Source: Thermococcus thermotolerans
GTDB taxonomy: Archaea; Methanobacteriota_B; Thermococci; Thermococcales; Thermococcaceae
Assembly: GCF_024707485.1 (NCBI RefSeq)
Contig: NZ_CP102602.1
Span: forward strand, 1,550,001 to 1,614,000
Direction: 5' to 3'
DNA: 64,000 nt
Shown here in pieces: positions 49,959 through 55,637 of the stretch. How positions within the stretch are numbered: position 1 is the first letter of the stretch; each line of letters begins with the position of its first letter. A program made the position numbers and the translations under genes. A model generated the notes under the pieces. That model ran no database searches, had not been told where the DNA came from, and was given only the letters and a program-made list of their open reading frames with translations.

Positions 49959-50923
49959 ATGAGGTTCTCCGTTCTCAAGGAGAGGGAGAGCACAGTTGGG
50001 CTGATATTTATGCTCATTTTTGAACTGTTCCTTCTGGCACTCTTGGCTTTCATAATATTCAACGTGGATGAAAACAGAATCTTCACCATAGGGGTCTTCG
50101 CTTTCTTTCTCCTGATAACACTAAGCGGAATTAGGGCTCTCATGAAGAAGAGGAGAGAATACCGGCGTGCCGAAAACTTCGCGAACCTTGCGAACTTTTC
50201 CGAATCGGAGGTAACCTTTCCGGAGGAGCTCGAACTCGAGAGGGGGACGCTCGAGATAAGGGGATACTGGGTCAGGAGCGGAAGGAACAGGAGATACCAA
50301 GTGGAGAGGAAGTTCCTTCCCGGGGAAAGGAAGAGAGCCTCACGGGTCCCTTTCATGGGCTCACCGTTCAAAGTGGCCGTTTCCCCCGACGGCACAGGCT
50401 TCGTAAAGGCTCCCGCCGTGAGAATAACCGACGGGCTTTACAAAAACGTCCTGGTGCTATTTTTCACCGATGAGGGTGAAGTCAGAGGTAGCGGCACGGT
50501 AACCGTTGCCACCGAGAGCGATTCCGTCCAAATAAACTTCAGAGGGGACGGAAAATTTATCCGGGGAATGTTTACTCCGCCCTCACGAAAGGGAAGAGCG
50601 TTAAGGTAGCCCTCACCGCTGAGGACTTTGAGTACAAGAAGGTCATCGGGAAGGGCAGGAGCTTCGAGTTCCGGGAAAGGATGCTCCCGGAGGAGAAGGT
50701 CATCATGGTGGGAACCTACGGGACGGTGACGCCGAGGATGGTGGCAAAGGCTCTCGGTGGGGGGACAGTACTCCTCGGCCACGGCGAGTTCATGATCCGC
50801 GGCATTCTGGACATAAGGCTGAGGCCGGACGTGAAGGCAGAGGAAACCTTCAGGGTCGAGCTGAAGGGAGAAGAAATCGAGGAAGAAAAGGAGTTCGAGG
50901 AGGAGTGGGGGTTCAGGGACTAA
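49959..50923 (+). pseudogene. Membrane-anchored hypothetical protein, interrupted by a frameshift
   Basis: The first frame, from ATG 49959 (after GGTGA), gives two membrane helices (about 18-65) and a beta-rich soluble part, and ends at TAG 50607-50609 after an abrupt loss of sense. A second frame, one base back, continues the protein smoothly: KIYPGNVYSALTKGKSV, then MLPEEKVIMVGTYGTV to TGA/TAA at 50923. The switch point is at the AAAA run 50552-50555 (GACGGAAAATTT). One missing A would explain it. The full protein would be about 321 residues. It could be a real disruption, a sequencing error in the run, or (less likely) programmed slippage. The family is not recognised. Confidence 0.72.
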
Positions 50924-52016
50924 CCCCAGATCTTACTTTCTTTTCAAAAATTCTCACTACCCATTCCATCTCACTTGCAGATGGAGGATTCCTAGATAGT
51001 TCAACGACAAACCTTGAGCCACTGGACAGCTTTTCGGTTTTTATATACAGATACAGCTTTTCTCTTTCTTCAAACCCAAGGGACTCCAAAAATTCTCCCA
51101 TTGCACCAGAGATGGCCCTAACCTGAATAAACCGTACTTTGTCGTGTTTTTCCTGAAGATACTCTATCAACTTCTTGAAGGCCTTAGCCACGTTTTCATC
51201 GTCAGTTTTTGTCAAAAAGGGATTTGGTGAAAAATCAAAAACAATAAGCCGCGAACCCTCGATAAAATATCTAACACCCAAGAGGTAGTTTGAAAGTGCA
51301 CCCGTTCCATCACCGTAGTGAATACTTAGACACTGGAACTCATTTTCTCCGTGGAACATCTCCAAAAGTCTGTTTTCAATTTCCATCTTAGCCTTTCTGC
51401 GAGCCACGTACTCAACCCAGCGTGCCTCTTCAAAGAACCTACAGGAATTCTTGCCTGAAACAACAAAAAACTCCCCACCAACATAATCCTCGTTTAATAT
51501 TCTAAGCTCTTGGTCATGCCTCAATGAGAACACTGCCCCATATAGAGGAATAGCACGATCGAGAAAAGTCTTCCAATCAAACTTTCCCAGGAATCCCCTA
51601 ACCCCCTCAATCAAGTCAATCCCAAGTAGGACAATATAGGGGCAGAACTTGTACGACAATTCTGAAAACTCAAACTTCTGCTCTTTGGAATCAGCTAGGT
51701 GTTTCAAAGCATTGAGTTCTCTACGTAGAGAGTGAAACTTCTTCCAGCACTGGACAATCTCTTTGGCTTTTTCGGGATCCCATATGAGCTTGTAGAGTTT
51801 AACTCTCCTACGGCCTTTTTGAAGATTTTCCTCCAGAGAAGGCTTGGACAGGACTTTTAAACGTACAAGTTCATCTAAAATCCTTCTGACAGTCTCCGGT
51901 CGCTCTTCAAGCTTTTTCGAGAGACTATACACCGTAAGCTCATTACCATCGTGTGCAAAGTCAATTATTTTGTATGCAATCTTTGTGAATTTCTCAGTAT
52001 CTTTAGGTCTCACCAT
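50913..52016 (-). CDS. Winged-helix N-terminal hypothetical protein, divergent to the viperin operon
   Basis: 367 residues. The N-terminus (about 1-70) is a winged helix: KFTKIAYKIIDFAHDGNELT, then SLSKKLEERPETVRRILDELVRLKVLSK. The remaining 300 residues are unrecognised; the last part (about 285-350, FIQVRAISGAMGEFLESLGFEEREKLYLYIK) resembles an acetyltransferase-like C-terminal strand-helix-strand, but this is a weak impression. ATG 52016 is preferred to GTG 52046 because GGGGT precedes it. It is visibly AT-richer than the flanking genes and shares its upstream region with the SMP-viperin-exonuclease operon, so it may regulate or belong to that system. Its 3' end overlaps the frameshifted gene by 11 bp. 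Confidence 0.78.
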   Translation of the reverse strand: MVRPKDTEKFTKIAYKIIDFAHDGNELTVYSLSKKLEERPETVRRILDELVRLKVLSKPSLEENLQKGRRRVKLYKLIWDPEKAKEIVQCWKKFHSLRRELNALKHLADSKEQKFEFSELSYKFCPYIVLLGIDLIEGVRGFLGKFDWKTFLDRAIPLYGAVFSLRHDQELRILNEDYVGGEFFVVSGKNSCRFFEEARWVEYVARRKAKMEIENRLLEMFHGENEFQCLSIHYGDGTGALSNYLLGVRYFIEGSRLIVFDFSPNPFLTKTDDENVAKAFKKLIEYLQEKHDKVRFIQVRAISGAMGEFLESLGFEEREKLYLYIKTEKLSSGSRFVVELSRNPPSASEMEWVVRIFEKKVRSGVSP

Positions 52017-52075
52017 ATATACCCCATAAGTTTGGCGAATATTCACAAAAAAACGTTTCTTTTCGAGAATACTTC

Positions 52076-52085
52076 CTTATAAAGT
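52076..52085 (+). promoter_or_regulatory. TATA box of the viperin operon
   Basis: CCTTATAAAG lies about 50 bp before ATG 52128, giving an expected transcript start near 52106 and a leader of about 20 nt that contains GGGGTGAG at 52116-52123. Confidence 0.6.
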
Positions 52086-52127
52086 AAATCGCGGAATAAC
52101 TATTGACAGCTCTTAGGGGTGAGCCAG

Positions 52128-52280
52128 ATGGGAAAGAAGGGTTCCAAACCCATGACCTGGGAGGCCGCGAGGAGGATACAGAGCGCAGTGGACAGCGGGA
52201 GAGCCGTTAAGGCCGACGAGGGTTTCAAGGCCAGGGCAATGAGCGCAGCCGCAAGGAACTCAAAGGGTGGGAAGAAATGA
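52128..52280 (+). CDS. 50-residue SMP (seed maturation protein)-like protein
   Basis: The protein runs MGKKGSKPMTWEAARRIQSA, then a Gly/Lys-containing turn, then FKARAMSAAARN and a lysine-rich end. This matches the short repeat of the plant SMP/LEA family (TxEAAxRIQSAxxxxGxxxxxGFxARAxSAAxxN), which also occurs as stand-alone small proteins in prokaryotes, without known function. GGGGTGAG gives a good ribosome site. Its stop overlaps the viperin start as ATGA (52277-52280), so the two are translationally coupled. Its base composition is like the host genome, unlike the viperin; it might be an older resident gene that the viperin was placed behind. Confidence 0.8.
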   Translation: MGKKGSKPMTWEAARRIQSAVDSGRAVKADEGFKARAMSAAARNSKGGKK

Positions 52281-53161
52281 ACACCTCACCCCTTTCAATT
52301 TTTGAAACGACTCCACTGGCTGTCAACTGGCATATGCTCGAAAGGTGCAACTATCGTTGCAGGTTCTGCTTCGCAAAGTTCAGAGGAGCGCCAGAGCTCT
52401 GCAGAGACATCGAAAAGTCAAAGATCCCAATAAGCAAGCTCAGGGAGAGCGGAATTGAAAAGATAAACTTCACCGGAGGTGAGCCACTACTCTGTGAAAA
52501 CCTCGGGGAGCTGATAAAATACGCCAAGGAGCTTGGCATGGCAACGTCGATAGTCACCAACGGCTACTATCTCGTGGAAGACCTCGGAAAGGAATTCCTG
52601 AAAGAATATGGAAGATACCTTGACTGGATTGGCATCAGCCTTGACAGCGGAAAGGAAGAAGTCGAAGTTGCACTCGGCAGGGGTTATGGTGATCACGTCA
52701 AAAGGGTTCAAGAAGCAGTCAAAATAATAAGGAAGCTTCATCCCCACATTGGAGTCAAGATAAACACAGTAGTTACCAAATTAAACTGGCAGGAGGACAT
52801 GCATGACATCATCAGGGAACTGTCACCAGACAGATGGAAAGTTTTTCAGCTAAAAATAGTGCAGGGAATAAACGAAGAAAGCATAGAGCTGGCGATTACA
52901 GAAAAAGAATTCCAATCATTTGTTGAACGTCACAGCGACCTGAAACCAGTAGCAGAGGACAACGAGCTGATGACCGGTTCATATTTAATGATGGATCCCT
53001 ATGGAAGGTTCTATGACGAGAACACCCAGGCCAACAATCACCGGCCTTCCTTGCTGGAAGTTGAACTGAATGAAGCATTTGATGGGCTGAGATTTGACGC
53101 ATCGAAGTTCGTTCTCCGCGGAGGGATTTATAACTGGAGGAGGGGTGGAAATGAGGTTTAA
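52277..53161 (+). CDS. Prokaryotic viperin (radical SAM ddhNTP synthase)
   Basis: Viperins use a [4Fe-4S] cluster and S-adenosylmethionine to convert CTP, UTP or GTP to 3'-deoxy-3',4'-didehydro nucleotides that terminate viral RNA chains. In this 294-residue protein the cluster motif is CNYRCRFC (Cys24, Cys28, Cys31) in VNWHMLERCNYRCRFCFAKF. Family-specific blocks follow: KINFTGGEP (62-70), WIGISLDS and LGRG (117-136), KINTVVTKLNWQEDM (161-175), RWKVFQ (186-191), EDNELM...SYLMMDPYGRF (227-245), and the C-terminal FVLRGGIYNW, which matches the RGGxYxW tail of animal viperin. These go far beyond general radical SAM similarity. It overlaps the SMP-like gene by ATGA and the exonuclease-like gene by 11 bp. 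It is AT-richer than its surroundings, which suggests transfer. Nucleotide preference cannot be read. Confidence 0.93.
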   Translation: MNTSPLSIFETTPLAVNWHMLERCNYRCRFCFAKFRGAPELCRDIEKSKIPISKLRESGIEKINFTGGEPLLCENLGELIKYAKELGMATSIVTNGYYLVEDLGKEFLKEYGRYLDWIGISLDSGKEEVEVALGRGYGDHVKRVQEAVKIIRKLHPHIGVKINTVVTKLNWQEDMHDIIRELSPDRWKVFQLKIVQGINEESIELAITEKEFQSFVERHSDLKPVAEDNELMTGSYLMMDPYGRFYDENTQANNHRPSLLEVELNEAFDGLRFDASKFVLRGGIYNWRRGGNEV

Positions 53162-53840
53162 ACATGGAGTTACACACGTGATTTTCTTCGATATCGAGTA
53201 CTACGTTCCGGAAGAACACAGAAACCGGCCGGGACTAAAGGCCAATCCATATCTGAATGGAGGCTTCGTCATTGGGGGAGTTTTCCAGAGGTATTTCCCA
53301 ATAGAAAACAAATTCGAGAAAAAGGAGGAGTTCTGGATATGGGAGATGAATGGAAAAGACATACAGGAAAAAGAAAGGGAGCTTCTCAGGAAGATCTACT
53401 ACTATTTCCGGGAAAGCTGGACGAGACTGGAAGTGTTTGGAAACGGCCCCCGGCTCACGGAACCGATAGCTGCAGGATTCGGAATAGCCCGCTTTGACAT
53501 ACCGGTGCTCTTCGTAAGAAGCCTGATTCATGAAATCGCTGAGCCAGAGAAACTGTATGAAACATATTTCAAGATGAGACATCTTGATCTCAGCGTTGCT
53601 TCCGTTCCATTGACTCCAGAAAGAAAATATCCAGAGGTACTGGCTCCGGTATCTCAGAACTGGGTGATTAAAAACCTGCTCATGATTGAAAACAAAAAGC
53701 CAAGCGGAACTGAGGTGTGGGATTTTTATGATAGGTCAGAGCATGATAGAATCCGGAAGAGAACCATAGAAGAAATCGAGATTTCAAAGGATGTGTACTT
53801 CAAGCTGAAAAAGATTAGAAATAAAAGGAATAGAGAGTAG
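53151..53840 (+). CDS. DEDD-fold (RNase H-like) 3'-5' exonuclease-like protein coupled to viperin
   Basis: 229 residues. The first acidic pair is Asp14/Glu16 in VIFFDIEYYVPEEH (ExoI). GFGIARFDIPVLFVRSLI holds Asp116 (ExoII), in the GxxxxxFDxPxL pattern. Then come RHLDLSVA (Asp146) and a C-terminal RKRTIEEIEISKDVYFKLKK with Asp214 (ExoIII). The overall order matches PolB-exonuclease-like/RNase_H_2 families that trim nucleic acid 3' ends; the usual Tyr or His four residues before the last Asp is not obvious, so activity is not certain. ATG 53151, after GGAGGGGTGG, lies inside the last codons of the viperin gene. I infer removal of incorporated ddhNMP, or degradation of terminated transcripts. 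The family could not be named exactly. Confidence 0.75.
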   Translation: MRFKHGVTHVIFFDIEYYVPEEHRNRPGLKANPYLNGGFVIGGVFQRYFPIENKFEKKEEFWIWEMNGKDIQEKERELLRKIYYYFRESWTRLEVFGNGPRLTEPIAAGFGIARFDIPVLFVRSLIHEIAEPEKLYETYFKMRHLDLSVASVPLTPERKYPEVLAPVSQNWVIKNLLMIENKKPSGTEVWDFYDRSEHDRIRKRTIEEIEISKDVYFKLKKIRNKRNRE

Positions 53841-53858
53841 ACCTTTCTTTTTATCTCA

Positions 53859-55637
53859 TCAATTCACCTTCACCTCAACCCCATTGACCTCGAACTCCCT
53901 GTTTATGTTGGCCATTACCTCATCGGGGTCGATAACTATCCTCATCGGCCTGGAGGGGAGCTCAAGGTCCACCGTTGCCGTTCCGTTAACCCAGACCGTC
54001 CTGTCAACATAGCTCCCGTCGTCGAGGTAAATCCGCACCGGGACGGGCATCGTGAAGTTGCTGGCGTCGGCGATGGTAAAGGTCATGCTGTAGCCGTTGC
54101 CCGTCGAAGAGAGGCCCAGGTGGGTGATGTTGTAGTCCGGGAACAGCGTGGAGTTGAACCACTCGTCGAAGAACCAGCCGAGGTCTTCACCGGAAACGTT
54201 CTCAACCGTTCTGATGAACGCCGTGTAGTTGCAGTGGGAGCCGTGGCACTCCCCAAGGACATCGTGAAGGGCCCTGTTGAAGGTCTCGTTTCCGACGATG
54301 AAGCGGAGGGAGCGGAGCATGAAGGCGCCCTTCCAGTAAAGGGTGATTCCGGAGCGTCGGTACTTCACTGCATCCCTCACCACCTCGTAGAAGGGCACAT
54401 CTCCCCCATATCTCAGCGTCGTGTACTCGTTTTGGTTCAGCCAGGAGAGATAGCCCTCGGGATTCCACCTGCCGTACGCCTCCATCTGCATAAAAGTTGC
54501 CAGCGGTTCGTTGAAGTAACCGAAGGAAGCGTAATAGCCGGCCCATTCATGGGCAAGCTCGTGGAAGATTATGGAGGCGTAGTTTACAGCGGAGTCGTTC
54601 ATGCCAACGAGGCATTCCACGAGTATAACGTGTCCCAAATTCAGTCCAAAGGGCTTCTTTCCAAAGCGTTTGTACATCATCCTCTGTAACCCTGGGAAGA
54701 AGACGGCATCAAACCTTTCAACCGGAAGAATCCCGGTCAGGTTGCTGTACAGCCCCATGGCAAAGGTGAACTCCCTTTTAACCAAGTCAAAGCCTTCCTC
54801 GTTATATATACCCTTGGTGAAATAGACGGTGAAGTTCACCCCGTTCCACTGAAAGCCCTTCCATTCCATGTCCGGGATGTAGAGCGTAAAGCCCTCGTAG
54901 GGTTTAAGGGAGGCGTTGTAAACGACCTTCATTCCCGAACGGACTATGCCCCACTCTGACAGCACAAAAACCGTGTTCTCTGGAAACGTGGGGATTACCG
55001 TGATGGTTGCATTCCTCGAAGCAAACTCCCACCAGGAAAAGTCGGTTCCAATGAGAACGTTCTTCCTCCACATCTCACGCAGGTAGTCCTCGTTCTCAAG
55101 GTAGCGGAACTCGTAGTGGGCAACCCCGTGGAGCTCGCTAAGATTCGTCGAGACGTTGACCGCGTAAATCTCAATGCCAACGCCATCTTCATTAACCCAC
55201 CGGTAGACGTCCATGCGGGAAAGCTCAAGAGGGACGCCCTCGATGGTGACGTTGAGGGTTATAGGATCCTTCGGGGTGACGAGGAGCACCAGATAAAGCG
55301 TTCCAGAGGTGAAATTTGTAAGGACGAACTCGTACCTGCCCCTGAAGGTTCCATCCGTGTAGTTCACGCTTATGTTCCCGTACTGGGAATAAGGCACGGC
55401 AGAATACGTCTTCCAGAAGAATTCGGTCATGTTTTCAAAGCTCATGTTTACGTCAGCCCGCTCTTCAGGGTAGAGGAACTTCAGCGGCGTCTTGTGCTGA
55501 GAAGCCGGTGATTGAAGGGACGAAACTGTGTTCGAGGCCGATCCAGTTGATGTCGTTCCAGTCGTCGTATTCCCACCGAGACAGCCGCTCACGAGAACCA
55601 TGAAAACAACCAGGGAAGCAAGAACCGCCTTCCTCAC
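53859..55637 (-). CDS. Membrane-anchored M1-like metallopeptidase (gluzincin) lipoprotein
   Basis: 592 residues. The signal MRKAVLASLVVFMVLVSGC ends in a lipobox, followed by a Thr/Ser-rich linker (GGNTTTGTTSTGSASN). The catalytic domain has HELAHEWAGYYA (HExxH) and, 18 residues on, NEPLA with the third zinc ligand Glu, as in M1 aminopeptidases. A C-terminal beta domain ends the protein, and many N-glycosylation sequons are present. It is likely an extracellular peptidase that supplies peptides for uptake. GTG 55637 is chosen since GGTGGGTT precedes it, with a minus-strand TATA (CTTTTTATAC) at about 55672-55681; the frame further upstream is antisense to trpS coding. Confidence 0.87.
   Translation of the reverse strand: MRKAVLASLVVFMVLVSGCLGGNTTTGTTSTGSASNTVSSLQSPASQHKTPLKFLYPEERADVNMSFENMTEFFWKTYSAVPYSQYGNISVNYTDGTFRGRYEFVLTNFTSGTLYLVLLVTPKDPITLNVTIEGVPLELSRMDVYRWVNEDGVGIEIYAVNVSTNLSELHGVAHYEFRYLENEDYLREMWRKNVLIGTDFSWWEFASRNATITVIPTFPENTVFVLSEWGIVRSGMKVVYNASLKPYEGFTLYIPDMEWKGFQWNGVNFTVYFTKGIYNEEGFDLVKREFTFAMGLYSNLTGILPVERFDAVFFPGLQRMMYKRFGKKPFGLNLGHVILVECLVGMNDSAVNYASIIFHELAHEWAGYYASFGYFNEPLATFMQMEAYGRWNPEGYLSWLNQNEYTTLRYGGDVPFYEVVRDAVKYRRSGITLYWKGAFMLRSLRFIVGNETFNRALHDVLGECHGSHCNYTAFIRTVENVSGEDLGWFFDEWFNSTLFPDYNITHLGLSSTGNGYSMTFTIADASNFTMPVPVRIYLDDGSYVDRTVWVNGTATVDLELPSRPMRIVIDPDEVMANINREFEVNGVEVKVN

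Follow-up and report, generated by a model that had tools for sequence, protein, structure and literature searches.

The gene that directly follows viperin in Thermococcus thermotolerans appears to encode an exonuclease domain like that of the family-B DNA polymerases (PolB), diverged in sequence and standing alone. We suggest that the protein serves as a general 3'-end nuclease of a variable, probably antiviral gene cassette in which viperin is optional, a reading to which we attach about as much belief as doubt.

Results

The exonuclease-like gene and its neighbours

In the window (the whole stretch of 64,000 nucleotides that was analysed) the gene is the last of an operon with the order small ORF, viperin, exonuclease, and a divergent gene lies on the opposite strand:

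50913-52046, minus strand: divergent protein of 377 aa, a possible winged-helix regulator, with weak, below-cut-off similarities only
52128-52280, plus strand: small basic protein of 50 aa, present in all nine genomes with the exonuclease-like gene; its stop codon and the start codon of viperin overlap in an ATGA
52277-53161, plus strand: viperin, a radical SAM enzyme (NF038283 score of 302 bits, cut-off 180; pVip by PADLOC; PDB viperins as best relatives; gene junctions)
53151-53840, plus strand: exonuclease-like protein of 229 aa (ORF and translation; weak PF10108 match; hhalign comparison between the family and the exonuclease domains of PolB)

The 229-aa gene is a real gene. The original prediction had called this ORF within the same limits, with D14, E16, F115-D116, L145-D146 and D214 numbered as the translation has them, and this holds. 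Viperin lies immediately 5' of it, the start of the ORF sharing 11 nt with the end of the upstream gene as read at the junction. This upstream gene is a bona fide viperin, the translation of which contains the radical SAM cysteines C-x3-C-x2-C (C24, C28 and C31).

Motifs of the exonuclease-like protein

The protein was aligned with seven Thermococcaceae relatives, 64-68% identical to it, and with L059 (31%), a distant relative that shares their class but not their family and that came up in a search with the family profile (E 5.7e-10); the L019 copy was omitted. The motifs are as follows:

53190-53198, plus strand: motif I, D14-I-E16, invariant in nine of nine sequences and paired with the DIE of PolB ExoI
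53481-53498, plus strand: motif II, G111-I-A-R-F-D116 (N-x-x-x-F-D in PolB), placed by hhalign, with D116 invariant
53586-53588, plus strand: D146 of HLDL, invariant, by hhalign the counterpart of the Asp of PolB HxDL
53760-53774, plus strand: motif III as reassigned here, R204-T-I-E-E208 (Y-x-x-x-D in PolB), placed by conservation and hhalign
53790-53792, plus strand: D214, formerly taken for the last Asp of the series, an unconserved column outside the motif

D14, E16, D116 and D146 are invariant in all nine sequences and are thus not there by chance. To this extent the DEDD order that had been proposed (D14xE16, D116, D146, D214) stands; its last member does not, since the column of D214 reads D, K, R, K, K, R, E, K and A across the alignment, and D214 was dropped as the last catalytic Asp. 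The invariant acid of the same C-terminal helix is E208 (9/9). The third motif reads R-T-x-x-E instead of the Y-x-x-x-D of PolB, Tyr being replaced by Arg and Asp by Glu; R204, T205 and E208 are invariant in the Thermococcaceae, and L059 has Y-C-x-x-E at this place. The expected Tyr is therefore missing, as had been noted, its place being taken by Arg204, but the motif concerned is RTIEE (residues 204-208), upstream of the EISKD (210-214) that had been named. The Asn of PolB motif II is replaced by Gly in the eight Thermococcaceae sequences and is present in L059. As L059 has the Asn and the Tyr and yet has Glu, the Glu of motif III looks older than the changes of Tyr and Asn, judging from this sample of one.

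Kinship with PolB-type exonucleases

The nine-sequence family profile, L059 included, was compared by hhalign with the exonuclease domains of ten PolB sequences of the same class, among them that of the window's own genome. The score was 44.0 against a maximum of 22.6 in 100 column shuffles, and two unrelated alignments used as controls gave 15.3 and 16.4. Over 166 aligned columns, with all motifs in register, D14 and E16 pair with ExoI, D116 with the Asp of ExoII, D146 with the Asp of HxDL, R204 with the Tyr of ExoIII and E208 with the Asp of ExoIII, which bears out the earlier claim of an unusual third motif. When L059 is left out the score falls to 19.3, which is not significant; 4 of 100 column shuffles were equally high, so that this profile by itself is no proof.

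Support independent of hhalign comes from Pfam. Seven of the eight Thermococcaceae sequences give weak, partial matches to PF10108 (DNA_pol_B_exo2, a predicted 3'-5' exonuclease related to PolB); the window protein scores 19.6 bits (E 7.7e-4), under the curated cut-off of 24 bits, and L017 is the sole one of the seven close relatives to exceed it (30.1 bits). In L059, PF03104 is above cut-off. At the level of sequence, these matches uphold the PolB-type DEDD kinship that had been suggested for the protein. It shares with the archaeal PolB exonuclease domain (PF03104) the order and spacing of DIE, the motif II Asp, the Asp of HxDL and, towards the C-terminus, a third acidic motif, whereas it has no polymerase domain and departs from that domain in the Asn to Gly change of motif II and in the change of YxxxD to RTxxE. 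It thus possesses the D-x-E of motif I and the motif II Asp of the PolB-type DEDDy exonucleases and lacks the Tyr-x-x-x-Asp of their motif III. A PDB sequence search with the exonuclease-like protein returned no relative, and PHROGs gave no useful match to the window protein.

Catalysis or binding

All four metal-site positions (D14, E16, D116 and E208) are still acidic, and nuclease activity is plausible for a protein with such a sequence. The alternative that survives best, possible but in our opinion rather unlikely, is a binding-only protein, an option already raised in the original prediction, in which the fold would have been kept and catalysis lost through the replacements of Tyr by Arg, Asp by Glu and Asn by Gly, and which would cap or sense 3' ends or act as a scaffold for the small protein or viperin. 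These three departures from the PolB motifs are invariant in the Thermococcaceae, and the Asp to Glu change at the position of Klenow matching E208 nearly abolishes the exonuclease, the loss of activity exceeding 96% by the figure that PMC7654266 quotes. However, metal-site positions that are all acidic, invariant and under purifying selection are needless for mere binding, and the coronavirus nsp14 ExoN (DEEDh), an exonuclease of the DEDD superfamily in which one Asp is naturally Glu, is active (PMC7654266). The likeness to nsp14, which excises ddhCMP from RNA (PMC9415739), is drawn from papers only, and it is incomplete in that the Glu of nsp14 lies in motif II and its His is present.

The L019 copy contains an internal TAG and reads Gly at the position of D116; it was rejected as an intact copy and judged to be decaying or mis-assembled.

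Association with viperin

In a survey of 94 Thermococcaceae genomes the exonuclease-like gene was found in 9, viperin in 4, the small gene in 13 and the gene of the 377-aa protein in 9. All four viperins directly precede the exonuclease-like gene, with overlapping codons, and in this sense the earlier description of the protein as viperin-coupled is correct. It is not correct in the opposite sense: viperin was not found (E up to 1e-40) in 5 of the 9 genomes that carry the gene, and three of these five consist of one or two contigs and are 99% complete. No motif is lost in the intact copies without viperin, which are under purifying selection, with a dN/dS of about 0.12-0.22; the only viperin-linked pair below near-saturation gave 0.28, most other pairs being saturated. 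The four rows without viperin group as a single clade (95/99) in an unrooted tree, and the pattern can thus be accounted for by either a single gain or a single loss of viperin.

The conserved viperin-free copies, together with the tie to the small basic protein (9/9), argue against a role confined to 3' ends carrying ddhNMP, and the proposed specialisation for such ends is accordingly unsupported; the removal of ddhNMP as one use among others is possible, the superfamily being capable of it (nsp14, PMC9415739), but nothing here points to it in particular. We regard as improbable the explanation that the protein is a dedicated partner of viperin which strips ddhNMP from the 3' ends of cellular RNA or DNA and thereby shields the cell from the chain terminator that it makes itself. 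The position of all four viperins directly before the gene speaks in its favour, and the unrooted tree would fit a history in which viperin came first and was lost later, but the gene is not confined to genomes with viperin (4 of 9), its intact copies are conserved where viperin is absent, and five plasmid-borne viperin loci of other organisms have no relative of it nearby.

On plasmid pMETHO01 of Methanomethylovorans hollandica (L090:6923-7816) the viperin gene is followed by that of a SEC-C motif protein, with no exonuclease. The search for exonuclease-like relatives covered the window's genus, family and phylum, viral contigs, phages and plasmids, and in addition one shallow genome scan; no relative was found in the phages, plasmids and viral contigs at the limits used. 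A match in G046 (35 residues, 46%, E 8e-4) is on the strand opposite a long ORF that has an ATPase motif, and was discarded as a chance match.

The operon resembles the prokaryotic viperin systems (pVip) in that NCBIfam, PADLOC and the PDB relatives all identify its middle gene as a viperin, but it contains no nucleotide kinase gene, and an exonuclease-like gene follows viperin instead. The word "exonuclease" is absent from the paper on archaeal immunity PMC12988326.

The variable cassette

In the window and in the seven other loci long enough to be read (L012, L013, L014, L017, L048, L049 and L050) the cassette is flanked by trpS-like genes and a fumarylacetoacetase-like gene, both names being based on sequence resemblance with no profile test. 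The divergent slot is occupied either by the 377-aa protein, possibly a winged-helix regulator, or by a different protein of about 790 aa. The gene of the former always occurs alongside the small gene, and the window is the sole genome of the set in which it is found together with viperin.

The larger protein takes its place at L012:8216-10570, L017:10048-12444, L018:2601-4997 and L051:8358-10805; it has no Pfam match above cut-off, and viperin is present in three of these four loci. PMC12988326 mentions a viperin system that is restricted to archaea and includes a TPR protein. In G033 the gene of the 377-aa protein is split into two parts (L015:9824-10636 and L015:2-157), about 10 kb apart and on opposite strands with CRISPR-like repeats between them, in keeping with what an inversion would leave.

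The small basic protein (52128-52280; L001, L013, L048-L051) exists in two forms, with or without an acidic C-terminal tail. The tail-less form is found in all four viperin loci and in three others; the form with the tail, which ends in GNWF, is found in all four loci without the exonuclease-like gene and in two with it. The idea that the small protein is a plant-type SMP domain was dropped, no Pfam or NCBIfam match being obtained. The G+C content is 0.42-0.47 across the cassette (51001-54000) against mostly 0.50-0.58 around it, which is in keeping with a foreign origin.

Discussion

Given the persistence of the exonuclease-like gene in related genomes that have no viperin, the probable role of its product is that of a general nuclease in a defence cassette of changing content, as opposed to a partner of viperin alone. 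The direct basis of this reading is formed by the motifs, the profile kinship, the gene overlaps, the association pattern and the purifying selection, and from these we infer a fold, metal binding, nuclease activity, a substrate and an antiviral role. The protein is predicted to have an RNase H-like, DEDDy-related fold of the family-B DNA polymerase exonuclease type, in which D14, E16, D116 and E208 would hold two metal ions and Arg204 would stand in for the usual Tyr, and it would trim the 3' ends of nucleic acids. The cassette, at a fixed site of the Thermococcus chromosome, consists of the small basic protein, the exonuclease-like protein and a divergent, possibly regulatory gene; viperin is an optional member that takes the middle position and is translationally coupled. 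The nuclease may act on the nucleic acid of invaders or on stalled 3' ends; in genomes with viperin it may encounter ends capped by ddhNMP as well, with no dependence on viperin.

Slightly less credible even than a dedicated viperin partner is, in our estimate, an undescribed class of exonucleases (D-E-D-E, with Arg for Tyr) that edits the ddhNMP 3' ends made by viperin, with viperin as one of several exchangeable modules of the cassette. The least probable explanation is that the resemblance to the PolB motifs is coincidental and the fold a different one, for although the hhalign result is insignificant without L059 and the PDB holds no relative by sequence, PF10108 is found in 7 of 8 members with one above cut-off, PF03104 is above cut-off in the relative that the family profile itself retrieved, and the motifs are all in register.

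The product of viperin is a set of chain-terminating nucleotides, and how a viperin-producing cell handles 3' ends blocked by its own chain terminators is, to our knowledge, an open question. The presence of a gene resembling those of 3'-end nucleases, overlapping the codons of viperin, makes this question testable in a genetically tractable group. At the same time the cassette, in which viperin appears as a module that can be exchanged, next to a small basic protein and divergent genes that alternate, may offer a lead to an undescribed defence system of the archaea.
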